From Actinocatenispora sera (lineage in GTDB: Bacteria > Actinomycetota > Actinomycetes > Mycobacteriales > Micromonosporaceae): a stretch of 64,000 nucleotides of DNA. The stretch is taken from contig NZ_AP023354.1 of assembly GCF_018324685.1 (NCBI RefSeq), positions 5,084,001 through 5,148,000 on the forward strand, written 5' to 3'. Each line of letters begins with the position of its first letter. Positions within the stretch are counted from its first letter, which is position 1. This document shows positions 7,076 to 54,408 of this stretch, one piece after another. Both the position numbers and the translations under genes were made by a program. The notes under the pieces are model-generated. The model was not told where the DNA came from. It was given only the letters and a program-made list of their open reading frames with translations, and did not search any database.

Positions 7076-8065
7076 TCACGGGCGGACCGAGCTGCCCCGC
7101 AGGATCAGGTCGGTGCCGAGCACCACTCGGCGCGGCGCGGCATCCGCGGTACCGCCGATCCGGTCCACCAGCAGCGTCGCCGCCTGGGTACCGATCCGGT
7201 ACGCGGGCTGCGCGACCACCGAGATCGGCGGGTCGATGAACGGCGCCCACGGCGCGTCGTCGAAGCAGATCAGCCCCACGTCGCGGCCCGGCCGCAGCCC
7301 CCGCGCGTGCAACTCCTGCAGTACGCCCAGCGCCAGCGCCGCGTTCGCGACGAAGAACGAGTCCGGCGGCCGGTCCCGGTCGAGCAGGCTCGCCGCGCCG
7401 GCCCGGCCGCCATCCAGGTGGAAGCTGCGGTGGGTGACCCGCCGGGTCCGGATGCCCGCCGCCCGCAGCGCGTCCTCGTACCCGAGCCGGCGCAGCATTG
7501 CCGTCTCGGCCGAGCGCGGGCCGGTCACGCAGGCGGGTCGCTGCCAGCCCTGCCGGATCAGGTGTTCGGTGGCGGCGAGCGCGCCGCCGCGCGAGTCGAC
7601 CATCACCCAGTCCACCGGCGCGGCGATGCTGCGGTCGATGACCACCACCGGGATCGAGTCGGCGGCGAGCCGGTCGATCTGGGTCTGGGTGCTGTGCGGC
7701 GAGATGATCACGCCGGCCGCGTGCTCGGCGGCCGCGAGCTGGATGTACTGCGACTCCTTCGTCTCGTCCTCGTCGGCGTTGCACAGCACCACCGAGTAGC
7801 CGTTCGCGACGGCGATGTCCTCCACCCCGCGCGCCACCGAGGTGAAGAACGAGACCTCGATGTCGGAGATGATCAGCAGCCACAGGTTGGAGCGCTGCCG
7901 GCGCAGGCTGCGCGCCAGGTGGTTCGGCCGGTACCCGAGCTTCTCGGCCGCGGCCCGCACCCGCGCCGCGAGCTGCGGATCGACCCGGTCGTTGTTGTTG
8001 AGGGCGCGCGACACCGTGGCGACCGACGTACCCGCCTCGCGGGCCACGTCGACGATCTTCACCAT
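7076..8065 (-). CDS. LacI-family transcriptional regulator
   Basis: A 329-residue repressor. The N-terminal helix-turn-helix and hinge helix are clear ([20 protein letters not shown], then [13 protein letters not shown]). A periplasmic-binding-type sensor domain follows ([48 protein letters not shown]). It is the last gene of the leftward glycoside operon, 7 bp after the GH116 gene. Three LacI-type sites in the divergent promoter region at 14387-14597 are its likely targets. The sensor domain should bind a sugar or glycoside entering through the linked transporter; the ligand is unknown. Confidence 0.9.
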
Positions 8066-8072
8066 CGGCGTC

Positions 8073-10874
8073 TCATCCCCTCGCCTGTCGCGCCGCGGTG
8101 AGCGTCAACGTGCTGCCCGCGGTGAGCCGCACCGGTACGCCGAACGTGTAGCGCACCCCGTCCGGCCCGTGCTGCCGGGCCGCCTCGACCCCGACCCCGT
8201 CGAGGGCGATACCGTACCCGTCGCCGTCCGGTCCGGTGCCGCCCGCCGGGGCGCCGCCGACCCGGTCGGCGCCGTCCGGCGATCCGGTGAGCCGCAGCTC
8301 GCGCAGGTGCAGGATGCCGCCGGTGCACTCGATCGACACCGAATCCGGGCCCGCGGACAGCAGGCCGTACCCGTCGGTGGTGAGGAACGGCAGCGTCGGC
8401 GTGGCCGGATCGGGCCGCCGGAAGGCGAACGCCCCGGCGACGTTGTCGTGCCGCAGCCCGCTCATCGCCTGCAGGGCCGACCAGCCCGACAGCGACCGGA
8501 CGTAGTGGTCGCCGCACTCGACCTCGTTGTACGGGTTGCGCCGGCGCCCGTCGTAGCGCGCCCACAGCCCGGCGAGGATCGCCTCGCCCTGCTCGACCAG
8601 GCCCTCGGTCAGGCAGTGCGCGGCAACCTGCCACTCGGTACCGGTCCACACCTCGTCGGCGTACCGGGTGGGTACCTGCGGCCGGCCGCCGCGCGGCCAG
8701 CTGCACACCAGCAGGCCGGTGTCATCGCCGTCGGCGAACACCCGGTACGGATGCTCGAAGCCGGCGAAGCCGCGCCGCAGGTTGTGCCGGACCACCGCGG
8801 CGAGCGCGGTGCGTACGTGCTCGGCGGGCAGCAGGTGGCCCAGGTCGAGCTGGTGCGCCCACCACTGCCCGATCAGCTGGTCGGACAGGCAGCCGGTGAC
8901 CCACTGGTACTCGGGCCGGTCGCCGGGCAGCAGCCGCTGCTCGTAGTACTCGCCGTTGAACAGCGCCGCGTCGTAGGCCGCGCTGCCGGCCTCGAACAGC
9001 TCCCGGTAACGGCGGGCGGCCGCGTTGTCGCCGACCAGGCCGGCCATCGTCTCGGCGGCGCGCAGCGCGGCGAGCCAGTAGGTACCCATGAAGGTGTTCA
9101 GGCCGCACAGGTCGATGTCGTGGGTGCTGGGCTGGATCCCGGTCAGCATCCCGGATCCGTCGGTGTGCCAGGTTTCCTCGACGTGGTCGAGCAGCCGGGT
9201 CAGGTTCGGCCAGTACCCGCGAAGCCAGTCCAGGCCGGCCGCCGCGTCGCCGGACGGGAAGGCAGTGCCGGCTTCGCCGGACGGGAAGGCAGTGCCGGCT
9301 TCGCCGGACGGGAAGGCCCGGTACTCGCGGTAGGTCTTGAGGACGGCGCCGAGCATGCCGTCCAGCGCCGGGGTGTCCGGGCCGCCGATCGGCTCGTCCC
9401 ACAGCTGCCGCAGGTAGGTGGGCGCGACCAGCCGGTGCGGCAGGTAGCCGGCCGGCGCCTGCATCACCTCGAACTCGGTGCGGCGCATGTCGCGTTCCAG
9501 CTCGGGGAAGAACGCGGCGAGCGTCTGGGCGTAGTTCCACACGTGGTTGCAGTTGAGCGGGCAGGACCCGCCGTGGGCGCCGGACCACATGGTGGTGGAG
9601 GCGCCGAGTACCCCCTCGAAGCCGTAGAAGCGGCCGTCCGCGCCGCGGAAGCAGGTGGGGCTGCGCACGGTCGCCAGCTGCGCCGCGAACTGGGTGACCG
9701 CGTCGTCGGACAGGCTGGAGCGGGCCAGCGTGGCCGGCCAGGACAGCGAGGCGGTGCGCAGCGCGTCCCAGTCGCCGCGCACGTGATCGAGCGCCGCGAC
9801 GGCGTCCGGGTAGACGGTCGCGTAGTGGTTGCCGAGCCAGAACCTGGACAGCCCCCACTCCGGCCGCGGCGGTCCGAACTGCTCGAAGTTGACGTACCTG
9901 TTGCCGAAGCGCCAGGTCAGCGCGATCCGCACGGTGCGCCGCTCCCCCGGCGCCAGCAGGAACCCCACGCCCAGGCCGGTGTTCCAGGTACGGCCGGGCG
10001 CGCTCGCGCCGAGCGCGGCGGCGGGCCCGTGTCGCTGCGGGTCGGGGTTCGCCGCGCCGGTGTTGGCCAGCCGACCGGTGCCGTCCGCGAGCGCCCGCGA
10101 CCGCAGGAAGGTCAGGAACTCGTCCGGGTGCCGCCACTGCACCAGCGCGCTCGCCGCCGCGTCGTCGGCGGCGAGGACCAGCTGCCCGGCGCCCGGTGCG
10201 TCCGGTGCCAGGGTGTGGTTCTCCAGCGCGACACCGGTCCACCCGGCGTCGCGGAACAGCCGGTTGGTGTTGCCGCCGTAGCCGGCGCCGTCGACACCGT
10301 CGATCGGGCTCACCCCGTCCCACCCGACGCAGTTCTGCACGGCCGCGCCCAGCGTGCCGTGCACCGGGTACGCCGCCGTGTTGGTCAGGGTGAAGGTGAA
10401 CAGCGCCGCCGGGATCGAACTGGCCGCGACGTCGCCCGGCACCAGCGGGGTGAACGCCTCCAGCGCCACGTCGAGGGGCAGCTCGGGGTCGCGGTAGTCC
10501 AGCCGGGCGAACGGGTACGTGCCGCCGAACTCCACCGCGGCCACGCCCGGGTGCCGGGCGAGCAGTTCGGCCTGCCAGCCGGCGACCTCGTCGTCGGTGA
10601 CCAGCGGCGTGCGCGTCGACTGGCGTACCGGCGCCTGCAGCACCCGCACCGTGTCGAGCGGCGGCTCCCAGCAGGTGGCGCGGATGGCGAAGAACGAACC
10701 GGGCAGCGCGCCGGCGTGGTTGCCGATGTTGTGCAACTGCCACTGGCGCAACGAGCCGTCCGCGCAGATCGCCACGGTGCCGGTACCGATGCCGCCCAGC
10801 GGCATGGCGACGTGCGGGCGCTGCGCCGAGTCGTACGGCACGCACCGGTACCCGGCATCGGTGGCGGCGCTCAT
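8073..10874 (-). CDS. GH116-family glycoside hydrolase
   Basis: A 933-residue cytoplasmic enzyme related to non-lysosomal glucosylceramidase (GBA2) and bacterial beta-glucosidases and beta-xylosidases. Family features are MPLGGIGTGTVAI with GSLRQWQLHNIGNH at the N-terminus, GGSCPLNCNHVWNY followed by FPELERDMRRTEFE in the catalytic barrel, GLNTFMGTYWLAALR, and DEVWTGTEWQVAAHC near the C-terminus. There is no signal peptide, so the substrate must be imported, consistent with the linked ABC transporter. The ATG overlaps the isomerase stop (ATGA). A tandem AFPSGEAGT repeat is inserted between conserved blocks. The exact glycoside is not predictable. Confidence 0.85.
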   Translation of the reverse strand: MSAATDAGYRCVPYDSAQRPHVAMPLGGIGTGTVAICADGSLRQWQLHNIGNHAGALPGSFFAIRATCWEPPLDTVRVLQAPVRQSTRTPLVTDDEVAGWQAELLARHPGVAAVEFGGTYPFARLDYRDPELPLDVALEAFTPLVPGDVAASSIPAALFTFTLTNTAAYPVHGTLGAAVQNCVGWDGVSPIDGVDGAGYGGNTNRLFRDAGWTGVALENHTLAPDAPGAGQLVLAADDAAASALVQWRHPDEFLTFLRSRALADGTGRLANTGAANPDPQRHGPAAALGASAPGRTWNTGLGVGFLLAPGERRTVRIALTWRFGNRYVNFEQFGPPRPEWGLSRFWLGNHYATVYPDAVAALDHVRGDWDALRTASLSWPATLARSSLSDDAVTQFAAQLATVRSPTCFRGADGRFYGFEGVLGASTTMWSGAHGGSCPLNCNHVWNYAQTLAAFFPELERDMRRTEFEVMQAPAGYLPHRLVAPTYLRQLWDEPIGGPDTPALDGMLGAVLKTYREYRAFPSGEAGTAFPSGEAGTAFPSGDAAAGLDWLRGYWPNLTRLLDHVEETWHTDGSGMLTGIQPSTHDIDLCGLNTFMGTYWLAALRAAETMAGLVGDNAAARRYRELFEAGSAAYDAALFNGEYYEQRLLPGDRPEYQWVTGCLSDQLIGQWWAHQLDLGHLLPAEHVRTALAAVVRHNLRRGFAGFEHPYRVFADGDDTGLLVCSWPRGGRPQVPTRYADEVWTGTEWQVAAHCLTEGLVEQGEAILAGLWARYDGRRRNPYNEVECGDHYVRSLSGWSALQAMSGLRHDNVAGAFAFRRPDPATPTLPFLTTDGYGLLSAGPDSVSIECTGGILHLRELRLTGSPDGADRVGGAPAGGTGPDGDGYGIALDGVGVEAARQHGPDGVRYTFGVPVRLTAGSTLTLTAARQARG
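9247..9317. repeat. 27-bp tandem repeat inside the GH116 gene
   Basis: Two identical 27-bp units (9247-9273 and 9274-9300) and 17 bp of a third (9301-9317). They encode in-frame copies of the nonapeptide AFPSGEAGT. The insert lies between conserved family blocks, in a probable surface loop. Confidence 0.9.
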
Positions 10875-47414: not shown

Positions 47415-47586
47415 GACAACCCGGCACCGCAGGTCATCGCGACGTCGCGGTACGAATCGAGGCATCGTCACCCGGCCTGGAACACCGCGGGTGGCAACGT
47501 ATAACGTGTCGGAGCCGACGGGATCGGCCGGCGACTGCCGGGACCGGGCCGCGGTGATGGCGATCGATCTGCCGGGGAGGGCGCAG

Positions 47587-50010
47587 GTGGCGGACGACCA
47601 CAGCGGCGAGCACGTCGGTACGGGCGGGGAAGCTCGCCGGTTGGCCGGTGCGCACGTCTTGCTCACCGGGGCGACCGGCTTCCTGGGTCAGGCGACCCTG
47701 GAGAAGCTGCTGTCCGACTATCCGGACACGCGGGTCTCGGTGCTGATCCGGCGCAAGGGCAGCACGCCCGCCGCGCAGCGACTGGACAGCATGCTGCGCA
47801 AGCCGGTGTTCAACACCTGGCGCGAGCGGGTCGGCGACGAGGAGGCGGCCCGGATCGCGGCCGAACGCGTCGACGTGGTCGAGGGCGACCTGGGCGGCAA
47901 CCCGCCGAGCCTGCCGGACGATCTGGACGTGGTGATTCACTGCGCGTCCACGGTGTCGTTCGACCCACCGATCGACGAGGCGTTCCGGACCAACGTGTCC
48001 GGCGTGGTCAACCTGTACCAGGCGATCGCGGCGACCGGCACCAGCCCGCACGTGGTGCACATCTCGACCGCGTACGTCGCCGGCGCCCGCAAGGGCGTGG
48101 TGCCCGAGGCGTCGCTGGATCACACCGTCGACTGGCAGACCGAGCTCGCCTCGGCGCTGGCCGCGCGCGACGAGGTGGAGCGCGACTCGCGCCGGCCGGA
48201 GGCGCTGCGCAAGGCGCTCGCCGAGGCCCGCGAGGAGCACGGCAAGGCCGGCCCGCAGTCGGCCGCGCTGGCCGCCGAGGAGGCCCGCAAGGAGTGGGTG
48301 TCCAAGCGGCTGATCGACTACGGCCGGCTGCGCGCGCAGAGCCTCGGCTGGCCGGACGTGTACACGTTCACCAAGGCGCTGGGCGAGCGCGCCGCGGAGC
48401 AGCTGTGGGCCGGCGCCGGCCACCGGCTGACCGTGGTGCGACCGGCGATCGTGGAAAGTGCCCTGAAGTACCCGTTCCCGGGGTGGATCGACGGCTTCAA
48501 GATGGCCGACCCGATCATCCTGGCGTACGGGCGGGGTGTGTTGCAGGAGTTCCCCGGCCTGCCGGACGGCGTGCTCGACGTGATCCCGGTCGACCTGGTC
48601 GTCAACGCCACGCTGGCCGCCGCGACCGCACCGACGCAGCCGGGCGAGGCACAGTACTTCCACGTCGGGTCCGGGCACTCCAACCCGCTGCCGATCCGGG
48701 AGATGTACCGGACCATCCGGGAGTACTTCGAGGCGCACCCGATGCCCGACGGCGGGCGCGGCGAGATCAAGGTGCCGCTCTGGACGTTCCCCGGCTCGCA
48801 GGCGGTCGAGCGGCTGCTGCGCACCGGCGAGCGGGCGACCGGTTTCGCCGAGTCCGCGCTGCTGAAGATGCCGGCGTCGCCGCGCACCCGCGACTGGATG
48901 ACCAAGGTCCACCGCAAGCAGCGCGAGCTGGAGTTCCTGCGCAAGTACTCCGATCTCTACGGGGTGTACACCGAGGCCGAGGTCATCTACACCGACGACC
49001 GGCTGCTCGCGCTGCACGAGTCGCTGCCGGCCGACGAGCGGGAGCGGCACGGCTTCGATCCGCGCGTCATCGACTGGACCTACTACCTCGAGGACGTGCA
49101 CTACCCGGCGATCACCGCGGCGATGCGGGCGATCGGGTCGCGGCCCCGCTCGCGTACCGTCGCCAAGCGCGAGACGCTGCCGGAGCGCACCGATGCGGTC
49201 GCGGTGTTCGACCTCGAGGGCACGGTCATCGCCTCGAACATGATCGAGGCGTACCTGTGGGCCCGGCTCGCCGGCCGACCGAAGTCCGGCTGGGTGGGCG
49301 AGCTGGCCGACCTGGCCACCTCGATGCCGAAGTACCTGCGCGCCGAGCGGCGCGACCGGGGCGACTTCGTCCGCACCTTCCTGCGCCGCTACGAGGGCGC
49401 CGACGAGCAGGCGCTGCGCCGGATCGTCGCGGACCGGCTCGGTGACACGCTTCTGGCCCGGGCGCTGCCGGAGGCGGTCCGGCAGATCCGCAGGCACAAG
49501 GCCGCCGGGCATCGCACGCTGCTGATCACCGGCGCGATCGACATCCTGGTCGAACCGCTGAACGGGCTGTTCGACGACATCGTGGCGAGCCGGTTGCACG
49601 TGGTGGACGGCCGGTTCACCGGCTACCTGGACGGGCCGCCGCTGGTCGGCGAGGCGCGGGCGGCGTTCCTGCGCCGCTACGCCCGGCTCAACGGGTTCGA
49701 CCTCGGCAAGTCGTACGCCTACGGCGACAGCTTCTCCGACCGACCGCTGCTCGAGGCGGTCGGCAACCCGAACGCGGTCAACCCCGACCCGAAGCTGTAC
49801 CGGCATGCGAAGCGGAAGAAGTGGACAGTGCGCGAGTGGGGTAAGCACACCCGCGGCCCGGTGGAGGCGCTGATGGACGGCAGTCGCGACAGCCTGCTCG
49901 CGGGCAGCTGGGGGCAGGCGGCGGTGTTGCCGACCGGGACGAGCACGACCGCGCTGCCGGGTGCGCCGGTCCGCTCGCTGCCCGCCGGCGGGTCGGAGGT
50001 GACCCGGTGA
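47587..50010 (+). CDS. fatty acyl reductase (SDR)-HAD-IB fusion protein
   Basis: An 807-residue two-domain protein. Residues 20-480 are an extended SDR of the fatty acyl-CoA reductase type: VLLTGATGFLGQATLEKLL, VIHCASTVSF, ISTAYVAG, and YTFTK (Tyr259-Lys263). Residues 535-740 are a HAD-IB phosphatase-like domain: motif I FDLEGT (Asp542, Glu544), motif II LLITGA, motif III/IV YAYGDSFSDRPLLEAVGN with Asp714 and Asp718. Motif I has Glu in place of the second Asp of most HADs. The GTG at 47587 follows GGGGAGG by 6 nt. It leads a four-gene operon. Confidence 0.8.
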   Translation: MADDHSGEHVGTGGEARRLAGAHVLLTGATGFLGQATLEKLLSDYPDTRVSVLIRRKGSTPAAQRLDSMLRKPVFNTWRERVGDEEAARIAAERVDVVEGDLGGNPPSLPDDLDVVIHCASTVSFDPPIDEAFRTNVSGVVNLYQAIAATGTSPHVVHISTAYVAGARKGVVPEASLDHTVDWQTELASALAARDEVERDSRRPEALRKALAEAREEHGKAGPQSAALAAEEARKEWVSKRLIDYGRLRAQSLGWPDVYTFTKALGERAAEQLWAGAGHRLTVVRPAIVESALKYPFPGWIDGFKMADPIILAYGRGVLQEFPGLPDGVLDVIPVDLVVNATLAAATAPTQPGEAQYFHVGSGHSNPLPIREMYRTIREYFEAHPMPDGGRGEIKVPLWTFPGSQAVERLLRTGERATGFAESALLKMPASPRTRDWMTKVHRKQRELEFLRKYSDLYGVYTEAEVIYTDDRLLALHESLPADERERHGFDPRVIDWTYYLEDVHYPAITAAMRAIGSRPRSRTVAKRETLPERTDAVAVFDLEGTVIASNMIEAYLWARLAGRPKSGWVGELADLATSMPKYLRAERRDRGDFVRTFLRRYEGADEQALRRIVADRLGDTLLARALPEAVRQIRRHKAAGHRTLLITGAIDILVEPLNGLFDDIVASRLHVVDGRFTGYLDGPPLVGEARAAFLRRYARLNGFDLGKSYAYGDSFSDRPLLEAVGNPNAVNPDPKLYRHAKRKKWTVREWGKHTRGPVEALMDGSRDSLLAGSWGQAAVLPTGTSTTALPGAPVRSLPAGGSEVTR

Positions 50011-51272
50011 TCCTGGCGCTGGAATACCACCGCTCCGCGGCCCGGTACATCGCGACCCGCACCGCGACCGGCACCAAGCTCGGCGGCCGGATGGCCGGCC
50101 TGCTCGTCGGCAACATGGCGCCGCTGCGGCTGACCAACAAGTCCGAGCCGCGCCGGCCCAGCGACGAGTGGACCCGGCTCAAGCCGCTGCTGTCCGGCAT
50201 CTGCGGCTCGGACCTGGGGCTGCTGTCCGGCTCGAACTCGCCCTACCTGTCGCCGATGATCTCGACGCCGTTCGTGCCCGGGCACGAGGTCGTCGCGGAG
50301 ACCATGGACGAGCTGCCCGGCCTGCCGAAGGGCAGCCGGGTGGTGATGGACCCGGTGCTGTCCTGCCGGCCGCGCGGCGTCGAGCCGTGCATCTGGTGCG
50401 CCACCGGCCGCGAGTCGCGCTGCGACCGGATCACCGGCGGCGCGGTCTCCTCCGGGTTGCAGACCGGGTTCTGCGGCGACACCGGCGGCGGCTGGAGCAA
50501 GCAGTTCGTGGCGCACGCGAGCCAGCTGCACCCGGTACCGGACGAGCTGAGCAACGAGCGCGCGGTGCTGGTCGAGCCGATCGCGTGCGCCGTGCACTCG
50601 GTCCGCCGGGTACACGTACCGGCCGGCGCCTCGGTACTGCTGATCGGCGCCGGCACGGTCGGCCTGTTCACCCTGCTGGCGCTGCGCGAGTTCACCCAGG
50701 CCGGCCCGATCTACGTCGTCGCCAAGCACCGCCACCAGCGGGAGCGCGCGCTGCAGCTGGGCGCCACCGAGGTGTTCGAGCCGAAGCGGGCGGCGCGGGC
50801 GCTGCGCCGCGCCACCGGCGGTTCGTTGCAACACCCGCAGATGGGTGCGGACTTCCTGCTCGGCGGCGCGGACATCGCGTTCGAGTGCACCGGCGGGGCC
50901 GGCGGCCTGACCTCCGCGCTGCGGATGGTGCGCGCCGGCGGCACCGTGGTCGCCTCCGGCATCCCGGCGAGCGGCGTCGACCTGACCCCGCTGTGGTACC
51001 GGGAGCTGAGCCTGGTCGGCGCCTACGCCTCCGACCACGGCGGCCCGGAGAAGGTCACCGACGACGTGCCGAACGCGGCCGAGGAGCGCACCCGCGCCGA
51101 TGGCCGGGACGGCGACTTCGCCGAGGCGATGGCGCTCGCCGGAACCGCGCCGCTGGACGGTTACGTGGACGCGGTCTACTCGCTGAGCCAGTGGCGGGAC
51201 GCGATCGGGCACGCCTTCGCGGCGGGCCGGCTCGGTACCGTCAAGGTCGCCTTCGCCCCGGGCCAGCAGTGA
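50007..51272 (+). CDS. zinc-dependent alcohol dehydrogenase, MDR family
   Basis: A 421-residue medium-chain dehydrogenase. The catalytic zinc site is suggested by LLSGICGSDLG, FVPGHEVV and the later VEPIACAVHSV, and the cofactor loop is LLIGAGTVGLFTLLAL. The structural-zinc loop region carries VLSCRPRGVEPCIWCATGRESRC with several cysteines. It would oxidise or reduce a long-chain alcohol/aldehyde, matching the upstream acyl reductase. The GTG start overlaps the previous stop (GTGA). Confidence 0.85.
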   Translation: MILALEYHRSAARYIATRTATGTKLGGRMAGLLVGNMAPLRLTNKSEPRRPSDEWTRLKPLLSGICGSDLGLLSGSNSPYLSPMISTPFVPGHEVVAETMDELPGLPKGSRVVMDPVLSCRPRGVEPCIWCATGRESRCDRITGGAVSSGLQTGFCGDTGGGWSKQFVAHASQLHPVPDELSNERAVLVEPIACAVHSVRRVHVPAGASVLLIGAGTVGLFTLLALREFTQAGPIYVVAKHRHQRERALQLGATEVFEPKRAARALRRATGGSLQHPQMGADFLLGGADIAFECTGGAGGLTSALRMVRAGGTVVASGIPASGVDLTPLWYRELSLVGAYASDHGGPEKVTDDVPNAAEERTRADGRDGDFAEAMALAGTAPLDGYVDAVYSLSQWRDAIGHAFAAGRLGTVKVAFAPGQQ

Positions 51273-51351
51273 CGGGGGCGGTCATGACGAAGGCGGCGCG
51301 GACAGACGCGATGGACACGACATTTGTTGGTACCCAACGGGAGGCTGCGGC

Positions 51352-52929
51352 GTGAGCAGGCCAGGGTTCGTACTTGAGGTCGATGAGCGGACCCCACCGC
51401 TGCTGATCCACCAGGGCGAGGGGTTCCGGCTGGAAAATCTGCCGCTGGGCAGCAAGGTCATCTACGGGCCGGATCCGCTGCCCGGGCTGCGGGACGTGAA
51501 CGCCGCGATCCGGCACGCGCTGCTGCACCCGCACGGCATGGAGCCGCTGCCCGAGCTGCTGAAGCCGGGCATGAAGCTGACGATCGCGTTCGACGACATC
51601 TCGCTGCCGTTGCCGCAGATGCAGACCCCGGACATCCGGCAGCGCATCCTCGAGCACGTGCTGGAGCTGGCCGCGCGCAAGGGCGTCAACGACGTCGAGC
51701 TGGTCGCGGCGAACGCGCTGCACCGGCGGATGACGCCGAGCGAGCTGAAGCGGGCGGTCGGCGAGCGGGTGTTCCGCGCGTTCTTCCCCGAGCACCTGCG
51801 CAACCACGACGCCGAGGACAAGGACAACATGGTCCACCTCGGCAAGACCGACCACGGTGAGGACGTGGAGCTCAACAAGCGGGCGATGGAGTCCGACCTG
51901 TTGATCTACGTCAACATCAACCTGACCCCGATGTCCGGTGGCCCGAAGTCGGTGTCGGTGGGCCTGGCCGGCTACAACAGCCTGCGCCACCACCACAACT
52001 CGCACGTGCTGAAGCACTCGCGGTCGTTCAACGACCCGCCGAACTCGGCGATGCACCACTCGTACAACCGGATGGCCGACCTGCTCGGCGGGCACGTCAA
52101 GGTGTTCACCATCGAGACGAGCGTCAACAGCGAGTCGTTCCCGTCCGCGATGGGCTTCCTGAACAAGCGCGAGTGGGAGTGGAACCTCAAGGACCAGGCG
52201 TCCTACCTCGCGGTCAAGCGGGCCAACGAGATGCTGCCGACCAAGATGCGGCGCAAGGTCTGGCAGAGCCAGTACGCGCCGTACAAGATGACCGGCATCA
52301 ACGCCGGTGCGCCGAGCGAGGTGCACCCGCTGACCATGGCCAAGGTCCACGAGCAGCAGCGGGTCGAGGTCAACGGCCAGGCCGACATCGGCATCTTCGG
52401 CGTGCCGTTCATCTGCCCCTACAACGTCAACTCGATCATGAACCCGATCCTGGTGACGTCGATGGGGCTGGGCTACCAGTTCAACATGTACCTGAACAAG
52501 CCGATCGTGCGGCAGGGCGGCGTCGGCATCTTCTACCACCCGATGCCGAACGAGTTCCATCCGGTGCACCACCCGAGCTACATCGACTTCTTCGAAGAGG
52601 TGCTGGCCGAGACGACCGACCCGGCGCAGCTGGAAGCCAAGTACGAGAAGCAGTTCGCCACCGACGAGTGGTACATCCACCTGTACCGCAACTCGTACGC
52701 GTACCACGGCGTGCACCCGTTCTACATGTGGTACTGGGCGTCGCACGCCATGGACCACCTGGGCGACGTGATCTTCGTCGGCGCGGACCGCAAGACCGCC
52801 GCACGGCTGGGCTTCCGTACCGCGACGACGCTGGGCGACGCGCTGGAGATGGCCAAGCACACGGTCGGGTCCAGCCCGGAGATCAGCTACCTGCACATGC
52901 CGCCGCTGACCCTCGCGGATGTGAGGTAG
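51352..52929 (+). CDS. LarA-like (DUF2088) nickel-pincer protein
   Basis: A 525-residue protein with the LarA N-terminal fold. Against Lactiplantibacillus LarA numbering, from memory, His124 (ALHRRMT) fits His108, Lys199 (GGPKSVSVGLAG) fits the cofactor-binding Lys184, and His215 (in LRHHHN) fits the nickel ligand His200 with the same 16-residue spacing. The position of LarA His174 (TPH) reads TPM, with several residues missing, so one catalytic histidine seems lost. Its C-terminal 200 residues (YHPMPNEFHPVHHPSYIDF, FYMWYWASHAMDHLGD) are rich in aromatic and histidine residues. GTG is the start; a GTTGG-TAC-CCAAC dyad lies 14 bp before. Confidence 0.75.
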   Translation: MSRPGFVLEVDERTPPLLIHQGEGFRLENLPLGSKVIYGPDPLPGLRDVNAAIRHALLHPHGMEPLPELLKPGMKLTIAFDDISLPLPQMQTPDIRQRILEHVLELAARKGVNDVELVAANALHRRMTPSELKRAVGERVFRAFFPEHLRNHDAEDKDNMVHLGKTDHGEDVELNKRAMESDLLIYVNINLTPMSGGPKSVSVGLAGYNSLRHHHNSHVLKHSRSFNDPPNSAMHHSYNRMADLLGGHVKVFTIETSVNSESFPSAMGFLNKREWEWNLKDQASYLAVKRANEMLPTKMRRKVWQSQYAPYKMTGINAGAPSEVHPLTMAKVHEQQRVEVNGQADIGIFGVPFICPYNVNSIMNPILVTSMGLGYQFNMYLNKPIVRQGGVGIFYHPMPNEFHPVHHPSYIDFFEEVLAETTDPAQLEAKYEKQFATDEWYIHLYRNSYAYHGVHPFYMWYWASHAMDHLGDVIFVGADRKTAARLGFRTATTLGDALEMAKHTVGSSPEISYLHMPPLTLADVR

Positions 52930-52933
52930 GGCC

Positions 52934-53926
52934 ATGGGTCTGATCAGTGAGGCCAAGCTGCTGTCGCGGGGCCGGGACTGGCGTGGCCGGTCCCGCACCC
53001 CGCGCTCGGCCGAGCCGTGGGCGCACAAGCACGAGCCGAAGGAGTTCCCGACCGCGTGGGCGCGCACCCCGGTCACCGGCATCGTGCGCACCGCGATCCA
53101 GCGCGGCGTGCTCAAGCCGGTGGCCTGGAGCCAGACCCGGGTTACCGTCGAGGGGCGCGAATACCTCGACGGGCTGCGCGGCCCGGCGATCTTCATCGCC
53201 AACCACTCCAGCCACCTCGACACGCCGATGATCCTCGGTTCGCTGCCTCGCCGGTTCACCGACCGGCTGGCGGTCGGCGCCGCGGCCGACTACTTCTTCG
53301 ACGCCCGCTGGCGCGCCTTCACCACCGCGCTGGTGTTCAACACCTTCCCGGTGGAGCGGTACGGGTCGCGCCGGCTGCGCGGGCTCGCCGGCCGGCTGGT
53401 CGACGACGCCTGGTCGCTGCTGCTGTTCCCGGAGGGCACCCGGTCGCAGGACGGCTGGATGAACCCGTTCAAGGTGGGCGCCGCGGCGCTGTGCATCTCC
53501 AAGGGCATCCCGTGCGTGCCGATCTCGCTGCGCGGCACGTACGGTGCCATGCCGCGCGGCCGCAACTGGCCGCGGCCGGGCCGCCCGAAGGTCGTCATCC
53601 GGTACGGCCGGCCGATGCGGGCCGAGGCCGGTGAGGGTGTGCGCGACTTCAGCTTCCGGATGATGTCCGAGGTCACCCGGCTGTGGAACGAGGAGGAGCT
53701 CGGCTGGTACGAGGCGCTGCGGGCCTCGGCCGCGGGCCAGCTCTCCGCCCCGACCGGGCCGAAGGCGATCGCCGCCGAGGCCACGCCGGCCATCGAGGCG
53801 GCCCCGGCCGCCGGTACCGACGTGGCGCCGGCCGAGCCGGCGGACGCGTCCCGGTGGCGGCGGATCTGGGAGTCCACCCGGCCGCTCGACGACGAGCGCC
53901 CCCGCCCGGTCTGGCCCGGCCGCTGA
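52934..53926 (+). CDS. PlsC-family acyltransferase
   Basis: A 330-residue 1-acylglycerol-3-phosphate acyltransferase-like protein. The acyltransferase motif is NHSSHLDTPMI (His-X4-Asp), the second is FPEGTRS, and VPISLRGTYGAM forms the third. A proline/alanine-rich tail of about 60 residues follows the conserved domain. It ends the module led by the acyl reductase-HAD gene, starting 4 bp after the LarA-like gene. It probably acylates a glycerophosphate or alcohol acceptor. Confidence 0.85.
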   Translation: MGLISEAKLLSRGRDWRGRSRTPRSAEPWAHKHEPKEFPTAWARTPVTGIVRTAIQRGVLKPVAWSQTRVTVEGREYLDGLRGPAIFIANHSSHLDTPMILGSLPRRFTDRLAVGAAADYFFDARWRAFTTALVFNTFPVERYGSRRLRGLAGRLVDDAWSLLLFPEGTRSQDGWMNPFKVGAAALCISKGIPCVPISLRGTYGAMPRGRNWPRPGRPKVVIRYGRPMRAEAGEGVRDFSFRMMSEVTRLWNEEELGWYEALRASAAGQLSAPTGPKAIAAEATPAIEAAPAAGTDVAPAEPADASRWRRIWESTRPLDDERPRPVWPGR

Positions 53927-53932
53927 GGCACG

Positions 53933-53962
53933 GCGGGTACCTGCCGCCCGGCAGGTGCCCGC
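53933..53962 (+). terminator. terminator of the acyl reductase-PlsC module
   Basis: Arms GCGGGTACCTGCC and GGCAGGTGCCCGC, 13 bp with one wobble, around a 4-nt loop, 6 bp after the plsC-like stop. Confidence 0.7.
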
Positions 53963-54087
53963 TCCCGGCGGACATGCCATCGCCGGCGCGGACCGCTTGA
54001 TTTTCGCTGCGGCGCCCCGTTGAAAGAATCCGATCCGGATCACCGGTACGGCCCCGCCGGCGCGACGCCCGACGGGGCCGGCGCGGG

Positions 54088-54408
54088 TCAGCGGGCCAGC
54101 GCGGTGCGGCCCATCGAACCCCACAGCGAGGGGCCGCCGTGCATGTTCTCGGTCAGTTCGCGCTCCCAGCCGTTCTCGACCGGTACGCCGGCCTCCCGGC
54201 ACGCTGCCCGGGCGACGTCGGTGGCCGGGGCGAGCTGGTCGCCCCACGCGCCGTCCTCGCCGACCAGCACGATGCGCGCGCCGCGGCGGCCGACGTACTC
54301 GATCACGGCGGTAGCACCGTCGTGCTCACTGGTGAACGCCTTGAGTCCCGCCACGATCCCGGAGGGGACCTGTTCGGACTCCGTTGAAGCCATGGGGGTA
54401 TCTGGCAT
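54088..54408 (-). CDS. small conserved hypothetical protein
   Basis: A 106-residue protein with a central alpha-beta core (TAVIEYVGRRGARIVLVGEDGAWGDQLAP, DVARAACREAGVPVENGW). No motif is recognisable. The 173 bp upstream contain its promoter and the ctaB 3' end, with no clear signals seen. Confidence 0.65.
   Translation of the reverse strand: MPDTPMASTESEQVPSGIVAGLKAFTSEHDGATAVIEYVGRRGARIVLVGEDGAWGDQLAPATDVARAACREAGVPVENGWERELTENMHGGPSLWGSMGRTALAR

Follow-up and report, generated by a model that had tools for sequence, protein, structure and literature searches.

More than one bacterial route to ether lipids has been described. The pathway of the alkylglycerone-phosphate synthase (AGPS) type consists of a fatty acyl-CoA reductase (FAR), a dihydroxyacetone-phosphate acyltransferase, AGPS itself, which is a flavin enzyme of animals and other bacteria, a reductase and a PlsC acyltransferase. 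Glycerol ester reductase (Ger)/PlsA represents another route to ether or vinyl-ether lipids (PMC11150832; here and below, citations refer to the available parts of each paper), and in Myxococcus xanthus the elbA-E operon brings together parts of the HAD phosphohydrolase, FAR-like, AGPAT-like and NAD-dependent epimerase type, mutants having shown that ElbD, and possibly ElbE, are important for its alkyl and vinyl ether lipids (PMC9131029). Here we analyse a stretch of 64,000 nucleotides from Actinocatenispora sera (contig NZ_AP023354.1, positions 5,084,001 to 5,148,000), referred to as the window, which contains an operon of four genes encoding a FAR-HAD fusion protein, a zinc-binding medium-chain dehydrogenase (MDR), a homologue of LarA (LarAH) and a PlsC acyltransferase. 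FAR and PlsC are common to this operon and the AGPS-type pathway, whereas AGPS and the short-chain dehydrogenase/reductase (SDR) are missing and LarAH and MDR are present instead. This gene set very probably encodes a glycerolipid pathway, an ether-lipid one being the most likely. On balance, we favour the view, drawn from sequence comparison, that the four genes form an operon for alkyl-ether glycerophospholipids of aerobic Actinomycetota in which LarAH and MDR replace AGPS and the reductase.

According to open reading frame (ORF) calling, the four genes lie closely packed on the forward strand (47491-53926) between ctaA and ctaB/tkt of the 7.04-Mb actinobacterial genome. The first gene (47491..50010, 839 amino acids, GTG start) encodes FAR-HAD, in which a fatty acyl-CoA reductase of the SDR type is joined to an HAD-IB phosphatase/phosphotransferase domain; a start at 47587 is as likely as that at 47491, since the match in most relatives begins near residues 40-51. 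With an overlap of 4 bases it is followed by the MDR gene (50007..51272, 421 amino acids), whose product is of the polyol/ketose-reductase type. LarAH (51352..52929, 525 amino acids), a putative nickel-pincer nucleotide enzyme of the orphan LarAH14/15/16 family with one catalytic histidine, follows after a gap of 79 bases, and a PlsC-type 1-acyl-glycerol-3-phosphate acyltransferase (52934..53926, 330 amino acids) after a further gap of 4 bases. This confirms the packing with overlaps or short gaps given in a preliminary description of the window, whose gene identities (SDR-HAD fusion, MDR, LarA-like protein, PlsC) are likewise supported by the Pfam and NCBIfam families.

The closest relatives of LarAH were obtained by scanning genome contigs, the best 80 with record titles being kept. 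They are 60-78% identical to the window protein and include sequences from Actinoallomurus, Actinomadura, Streptomyces, Nocardioides, Kribbella, Frankia, Nitriliruptorales and Ilumatobacteraceae. FAR accompanies LarAH in 76, MDR in 78 and PlsC in 77 of these 80 loci, with constant order and strand wherever the genes are present, and the absences correspond to contig ends save for MDR in L027 and PlsC in L016. These counts were obtained by tblastn; the sizes of the neighbour-ORF clusters for MDR and PlsC (57 and 41 loci) were set aside, because antisense shadows were often picked. Across 396 Actinomycetota genomes, LarAH scores above the family cut-off in 78 and FAR-HAD is found (E<=1e-40) in 82, with both present in 77 (Fisher p about 1e-74, shared descent ignored); in the 78th LarAH genome, G194, FAR-HAD lies at a contig end. 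In 68 of the 78 genomes FAR is encoded no more than 6 kb upstream of LarAH in the same orientation, and in three more at about 7.7 kb; of the remaining seven, six (G169, G338, G261, G204, G140 and G194) are interrupted by contig ends and one, G062, is not. Conversely, five genomes have FAR and no LarAH above the cut-off: two with a partial LarAH (G081, G135), two affected by contig ends (G224, G040) and one true exception, G347. Co-conservation of all four families, the check proposed in the preliminary description, hence extends far beyond close relatives. The inspected catalytic residues of all four proteins are conserved in nearly all relatives. A conserved fifth partner was considered and rejected, as clustering of the neighbours gave lineage-specific genes and larBCE among the clusters listed. 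The module is also present in a metagenome-assembled genome of Quadrisphaera (Kineosporiaceae; L072), a genus that we take to be in the same family as Kineococcus rubinsiae. For the latter species a dimethyl acetal (DMA) has been reported (PMC7472656).

The exception G347 belongs to a family of our sample (f9) that corresponds to Microbacteriaceae; two contigs of this family, in G524 and G471, were identified by comparison of 6000 bases as plasmids of Herbiconiux sp. L3-i23 and Glaciihabitans sp. INWT7, respectively. FAR-HAD is found in 56 of 199 Microbacteriaceae genomes, and one locus from each of 29 of these 56 was read (L147, L196-L215, L230-L237). In all 29 loci SDR, PlsC and AGPS are located beside FAR-HAD. 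An MDR match is lacking in 28 of them, the remaining one (L205) having an MDR-type match (29%) at a distance of some 3.5 kb. The PlsC proteins of these clusters are 44-58% identical to that of the window. LarAH is retained in five of the 56 FAR-HAD genomes, always directly downstream of FAR-HAD and never above the family cut-off, and was found in none of the 20 FAR-less genomes tested out of 143. All five proteins have lost the catalytic histidine, the pincer lysine and the nickel histidine. LarAH and MDR are here exchanged for AGPS and SDR, and the LarAH that persists beside AGPS has decayed.

The phylogenetic trees were calculated without an outgroup, so that "nested" assumes a root off the Microbacteriaceae branch. 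In the FAR-HAD tree, from which L026, L048 and L056 were left out as too gappy, the 21 Microbacteriaceae sequences form one clade (SH-aLRT 97) that is joined to Haloactinopolyspora, Actinoallomurus and, with a support of 99, the window; L214, which still carries a decayed LarAH, branches first within this clade. PlsC agrees with this placement. In the LarAH tree the decayed Microbacteriaceae proteins occupy a matching neighbourhood on a long stem, for which the program warned of long branches meeting and of odd letter composition. Identity to the window proteins is 7-23 points higher for LarAH than for FAR in 86 module loci and 15-20 points lower in the five Microbacteriaceae. The simplest history would begin with the acquisition of AGPS and SDR, after which LarAH and MDR were no longer needed; MDR then disappeared, and LarAH degenerated, to be lost altogether from most genomes.

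Two ferritin-like proteins flank FAR-HAD in 27 of the 29 Microbacteriaceae loci (7992-8801 and 11058-11861 in L147), one with a weak rubrerythrin match and an acyl-ACP desaturase match below the cut-off, the other without Pfam match. They are candidates for an aerobic vinyl-ether (plasmalogen) desaturase of Microbacteriaceae. DMAs, which are read as a sign of plasmalogens (PMC7472656), have been reported for Subtercola of this family (6.9-17% i-16:0 DMA and 3.2-11% a-15:0 DMA), Frondihabitans being without them (PMC5945732).

A connection to a lipid phenotype is provided by the Rubrobacteraceae (family f20 of our sample), in which G051 was identified as R. radiotolerans, one of its contigs being identical to plasmid NZ_CP007517 in all 8000 bases compared. 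Here the gene order is PlsY-FAR/HAD-MDR-LarAH, without PlsC, and PlsY is found upstream of FAR in all ten Rubrobacteraceae loci whose sequence extends that far (L139, L140, L146, L148, L154-L157, L159, L238). Rubrobacterales are reported to contain about 46% ether-linked phospholipids, the stereochemistry of which was not determined (PMC10821996). In the 21 Rubrobacteraceae with LarAH no AGPS match was obtained at E<=1e-20, and both FAD-oxidase_C proteins of G051 resemble glycolate/lactate oxidases much more closely than AGPS. The Ger/PlsA route differs as well, for the HGD-D family, which we take to be a part of it, was found in none of six genomes searched, namely four Rubrobacteraceae (G051, G041, G011, G073), the window's genome (G000) and one other module carrier (G048). 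In one Rubrobacteraceae locus, a globin-like protein, recognised by eye, is encoded between MDR and LarAH on the reverse strand (L139:12666-13322).

LarAH itself combines the Pfam family Lar_N with the NCBIfam family NF052592 (LarAH14/15/16), which it matches over residues 6-525 with 910.9 bits at a curated cut-off of 740. For the branch of LarAH that belongs to the module, 130 loci scoring above 480 bits to the window protein were aligned, with some genomes represented twice and rows covering less than about 380 residues dropped. The ribose-binding D82, the catalytic H124, the pincer K199 and the nickel-binding H215 are conserved in all 130. A second catalytic histidine does not occur at positions -12 to -2 before the pincer lysine in any of them, and the window protein, aligned to solved structures, has a loop shorter by about three residues; this second histidine is described as absent from LarAH groups 14 and 15 (PMC12611868). 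Position 85, whose equivalence to the carboxylate-binding arginine of LarA follows from alignments to solved structures and the text of PMC12611868, is occupied by Leu (108), Ile (19), Cys (2) or Val (1). Lacking these two residues, LarAH is unlikely to act as a classical hydroxy-acid racemase. A purified LarAH14 from Frankia showed no activity in any of seven assays with hydroxy acids (PMC7583248). Of the earlier proposal that a nickel-pincer enzyme handles a hydroxy-acid step, the nickel-pincer part is consistent with the conserved site, whereas the missing residues and the inactive Frankia protein speak against the hydroxy-acid part. An AF2 model of LarAH (mean pLDDT 93.7) has its best fold matches in 9q3k and 9q3j, both single-histidine LarA proteins.

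As for the cofactor, 24 of 90 loci have the complete set larB, larC and larE no more than about 10 kb from the module, variously arranged. LarC is found in 71 of the 78 LarAH genomes, with no match in the other seven, compared to 145 of 318 other genomes. A search of the window's genome for LarC and LarE found both, together with a second Lar_N protein, so that the nickel-pincer cofactor could serve either enzyme. LarAHs with 24-42% identity to that of the window, from 15 genomes, do not stand beside the lipid set, apart from a 29% HAD-type match in L118 and a 26% MDR-type match in L128, which indicates that the lipid genes go with one LarAH branch. L118-L122 represent a LarAH branch 39-42% identical to the window protein that keeps the nickel-site residues, with no MDR, PlsC or full FAR-HAD adjoining.

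FAR-HAD belongs to NAD_binding_4 and HAD/TIGR01490, with a Sterile match under the Pfam cut-off, and the nearest solved relative of its FAR part is the fatty acyl-CoA reductase 7eoz (183 bits, residues 41-543). The SDR Tyr/Lys and the HAD Asp/Thr/Asp are conserved wherever aligned in 121 relatives, with Ser in place of Thr in a few; HAD motif I reads DLEGT in the window, the second acid being Asp or Glu among relatives. MDR (ADH_N and ADH_zinc_N) has an NADP(H) ketose reductase, a butanediol dehydrogenase and a sorbitol dehydrogenase as its solved relatives ranked second to fourth. Its Cys66 is conserved in 93 and its His93 and Glu94 in 92 of 94 relatives, and a Lys/Arg followed by His/Tyr after beta-2 would fit the use of NADP. 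PlsC (PF01553) matches the solved 1-acyl-glycerol-3-phosphate acyltransferase 5kym and retains HX4D in all 117 relatives and the Glu of FPEG in 115. Directly 3' of the PlsC stop, folding reveals a 14-pair hairpin (53932..53963, no strand assigned). The single terminator said earlier to close the operon is only partly supported: the hairpin is a possible terminator that lacks a T run, and a scan for the terminator consensus gave no forward-strand site after PlsC, the sole site listed being on the reverse strand (54046-54030). A 106-residue ORF without Pfam or NCBIfam match (54088-54408, reverse strand) lies between PlsC and ctaB.

The exchange with AGPS and SDR, together with the decay of LarAH beside AGPS, suggests that LarAH and MDR do the job of AGPS and the reductase. 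In such a route the FAR domain, going by its family function, would convert acyl-CoA to a fatty alcohol, which LarAH with its nickel-pincer cofactor and MDR would place onto the glycerol phosphate backbone as an ether, as AGPS and alkyl-glycerone-phosphate reductase do elsewhere. In a chemically possible version, LarAH would abstract a hydride at the C2 carbinol of 1-acyl-glycerol-3-phosphate, the sn-1 acyl group of the transient glycerone would be exchanged for the alcohol, and the hydride would be returned, or supplied by MDR. PlsC would then acylate sn-2, the operon PlsY would supply acyl-glycerol phosphate in Rubrobacter, and the HAD domain would remove or move a phosphate. We put forward tentatively, and with rather less than even confidence, that LarAH14/16 is a nickel-pincer-dependent ether-forming enzyme and thereby a non-homologous counterpart of AGPS, working by reversible hydride abstraction at C2. 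The unusual lipid pathway proposed in the preliminary description is supported by these data; of its options, the ether lipid is favoured by the Rubrobacter lipids, the AGPS swap and the LarAH decay, with a parallel in the FAR, AGPAT and HAD parts of the M. xanthus elb operon (PMC9131029), and the wax-type ester and the 2-hydroxyacyl lipid gained no support. In the literature covered, which did not extend to subscription papers, we found no pairing of DUF2088 with an acyltransferase and, among the matches listed, none of nickel-pincer or lactate racemase with ether lipids; the words "lipid" and "fatty" are absent from the main text of the LarA homologue study PMC7583248.

Several points weigh against the replacement of AGPS and the reductase by LarAH and MDR. 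Every reaction in the proposed route is one that we infer from sequence, and we know of no precedent for the proposed LarAH chemistry. In G062 (Rubrobacteraceae) LarAH is on another contig than FAR and PlsY, neither locus being at a contig end, and in G390 and G235 no MDR is located between FAR and LarAH. Since the trees lack an outgroup, it is from the decay of LarAH that the direction of the swap is taken. The ether-lipid content of Rubrobacter is known via a citing passage, and the link to a phenotype covers, among module carriers, the Rubrobacterales alone; the search for known ether-lipid routes in this group covered AGPS and HGD-D, not ElbD. The effect of the M. xanthus HAD protein (ElbB) was ascribed to polarity (PMC9131029), and a Phytophthora protein named LarAH15, whose membership in the same group is uncertain, is a gluconate 2-epimerase (PMC11770544). 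Finally, AGPS-like genes do occur in module carriers: none is encoded among the four genes of the window and their neighbours, and an AGPS-like gene is found at E<=1e-40 in 26 of the 78 LarAH genomes (117 of 318 others) and at E<=1e-20 in 39, the window's genome included. G342, G302 and G241 carry such a gene at a distance of 2.5-4.4 kb from FAR, and their LarAH site is intact. A strict rule that LarAH excludes AGPS was rejected, as 26 to 39 of the 78 genomes hold both. The AGPS homologue of the window's genome, far from the module (G000:C1:5448059-5449552; L177), has a repetitive low-complexity N-terminal extension. This distribution, with AGPS within a few kb of FAR in three genomes and the LarAH reading frame retained beside AGPS in five Microbacteriaceae, would fit an ether-lipid operon in which LarAH has an accessory role, such as the tailoring or inversion of a hydroxy or polyol group, and AGPS or another enzyme encoded elsewhere in the genome forms the ether bond. 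We regard this as rather improbable, given that 39 of the 78 LarAH genomes, including all 21 Rubrobacteraceae, have no AGPS match even at E<=1e-20 and that the nickel site is lost in the Microbacteriaceae LarAHs beside AGPS.

A different objection is that the product may not be an ether at all. FAR is an enzyme of wax synthesis too, and the NCBIfam name of the NF052592 family is hydroxyacid isomerase, a name that also counts against an ether-forming LarAH. LarA family enzymes of known activity use 2-hydroxy acids (PMC7583248, PMC11770544). FAR could hence yield a fatty alcohol, an aldehyde or a long-chain diol, and LarAH could act on a 2-hydroxy or glycerate moiety of a wax ester, diol lipid, 2-hydroxyacyl or glyceric-acid lipid. 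Such a non-ether module appears unlikely, though worth keeping in view, because the same FAR-HAD and PlsC stand beside AGPS in 29 of 29 Microbacteriaceae loci, ether lipids are reported from Rubrobacter (PMC10821996), the carboxylate-binding arginine is replaced in all 130 loci and LarAH14 was inactive in its seven assays (PMC7583248). As inversion of a carbinol is the known reaction of LarA, and the stereochemistry of the Rubrobacter ether lipids was left undetermined (PMC10821996), LarAH could alternatively invert C2 of a (lyso)glycerophospholipid to give the sn-glycerol-1-phosphate type or mixed stereochemistry. This we consider very improbable: with a single catalytic histidine a two-faced acid-base inversion is not expected (following the reasoning of PMC12611868), and the exchange with AGPS would be left unexplained.

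The favoured reading, an alkyl-ether operon in which LarAH and MDR stand in for AGPS and the reductase, offers testable answers to two questions: which function the orphan LarA enzymes with one histidine fulfil, and by what route ether lipids arise without AGPS or Ger in Rubrobacter and possibly in many other aerobic actinobacteria. If true, it would represent a new ether-lipid route in aerobic bacteria, in which ether-bond formation was invented once more, with a nickel cofactor, and nickel-pincer chemistry would reach membrane lipids. To our knowledge it would then be the first nickel-pincer reaction other than hydroxy-acid inversion. The operon would also allow ether lipids to be predicted from genomes in a phylum in which alkyl ethers may have escaped routine fatty-acid analysis.

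Compared with the described systems, the module has its FAR-HAD and PlsC families in common with the AGPS-type clusters of Microbacteriaceae, where they adjoin AGPS and an SDR. The M. xanthus operon differs in that ElbD unites ACS, ACP, FAR and AGPAT domains in a single protein, and neither a LarAH nor a zinc MDR is named there in the available text (PMC9131029). On the side of the LarA superfamily, the match to NF052592 at 911 bits, the pincer lysine, the nickel histidine, the one catalytic histidine and the LarA fold place the window LarAH with groups LarAH14-16, whereas its strict operon with lipid genes, the missing second catalytic histidine and the replaced carboxylate arginine set it apart. 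Among solved structures the best matches in both sequence and fold are the single-histidine LarA proteins of Streptococcus plurextorum and Blautia wexlerae (9q3j, 9q3k), which likewise have one catalytic histidine; identity is 22-26% over the fold alignment, Asn replaces His174 in those proteins, and the aligned window LarAH has a loop shorter by about three residues. Their gene neighbourhoods differ as well, the LarA of 9q3j and 9q3k being accompanied by genes of sugar metabolism (PMC12611868) and the LarAH of the window by genes of lipid metabolism.

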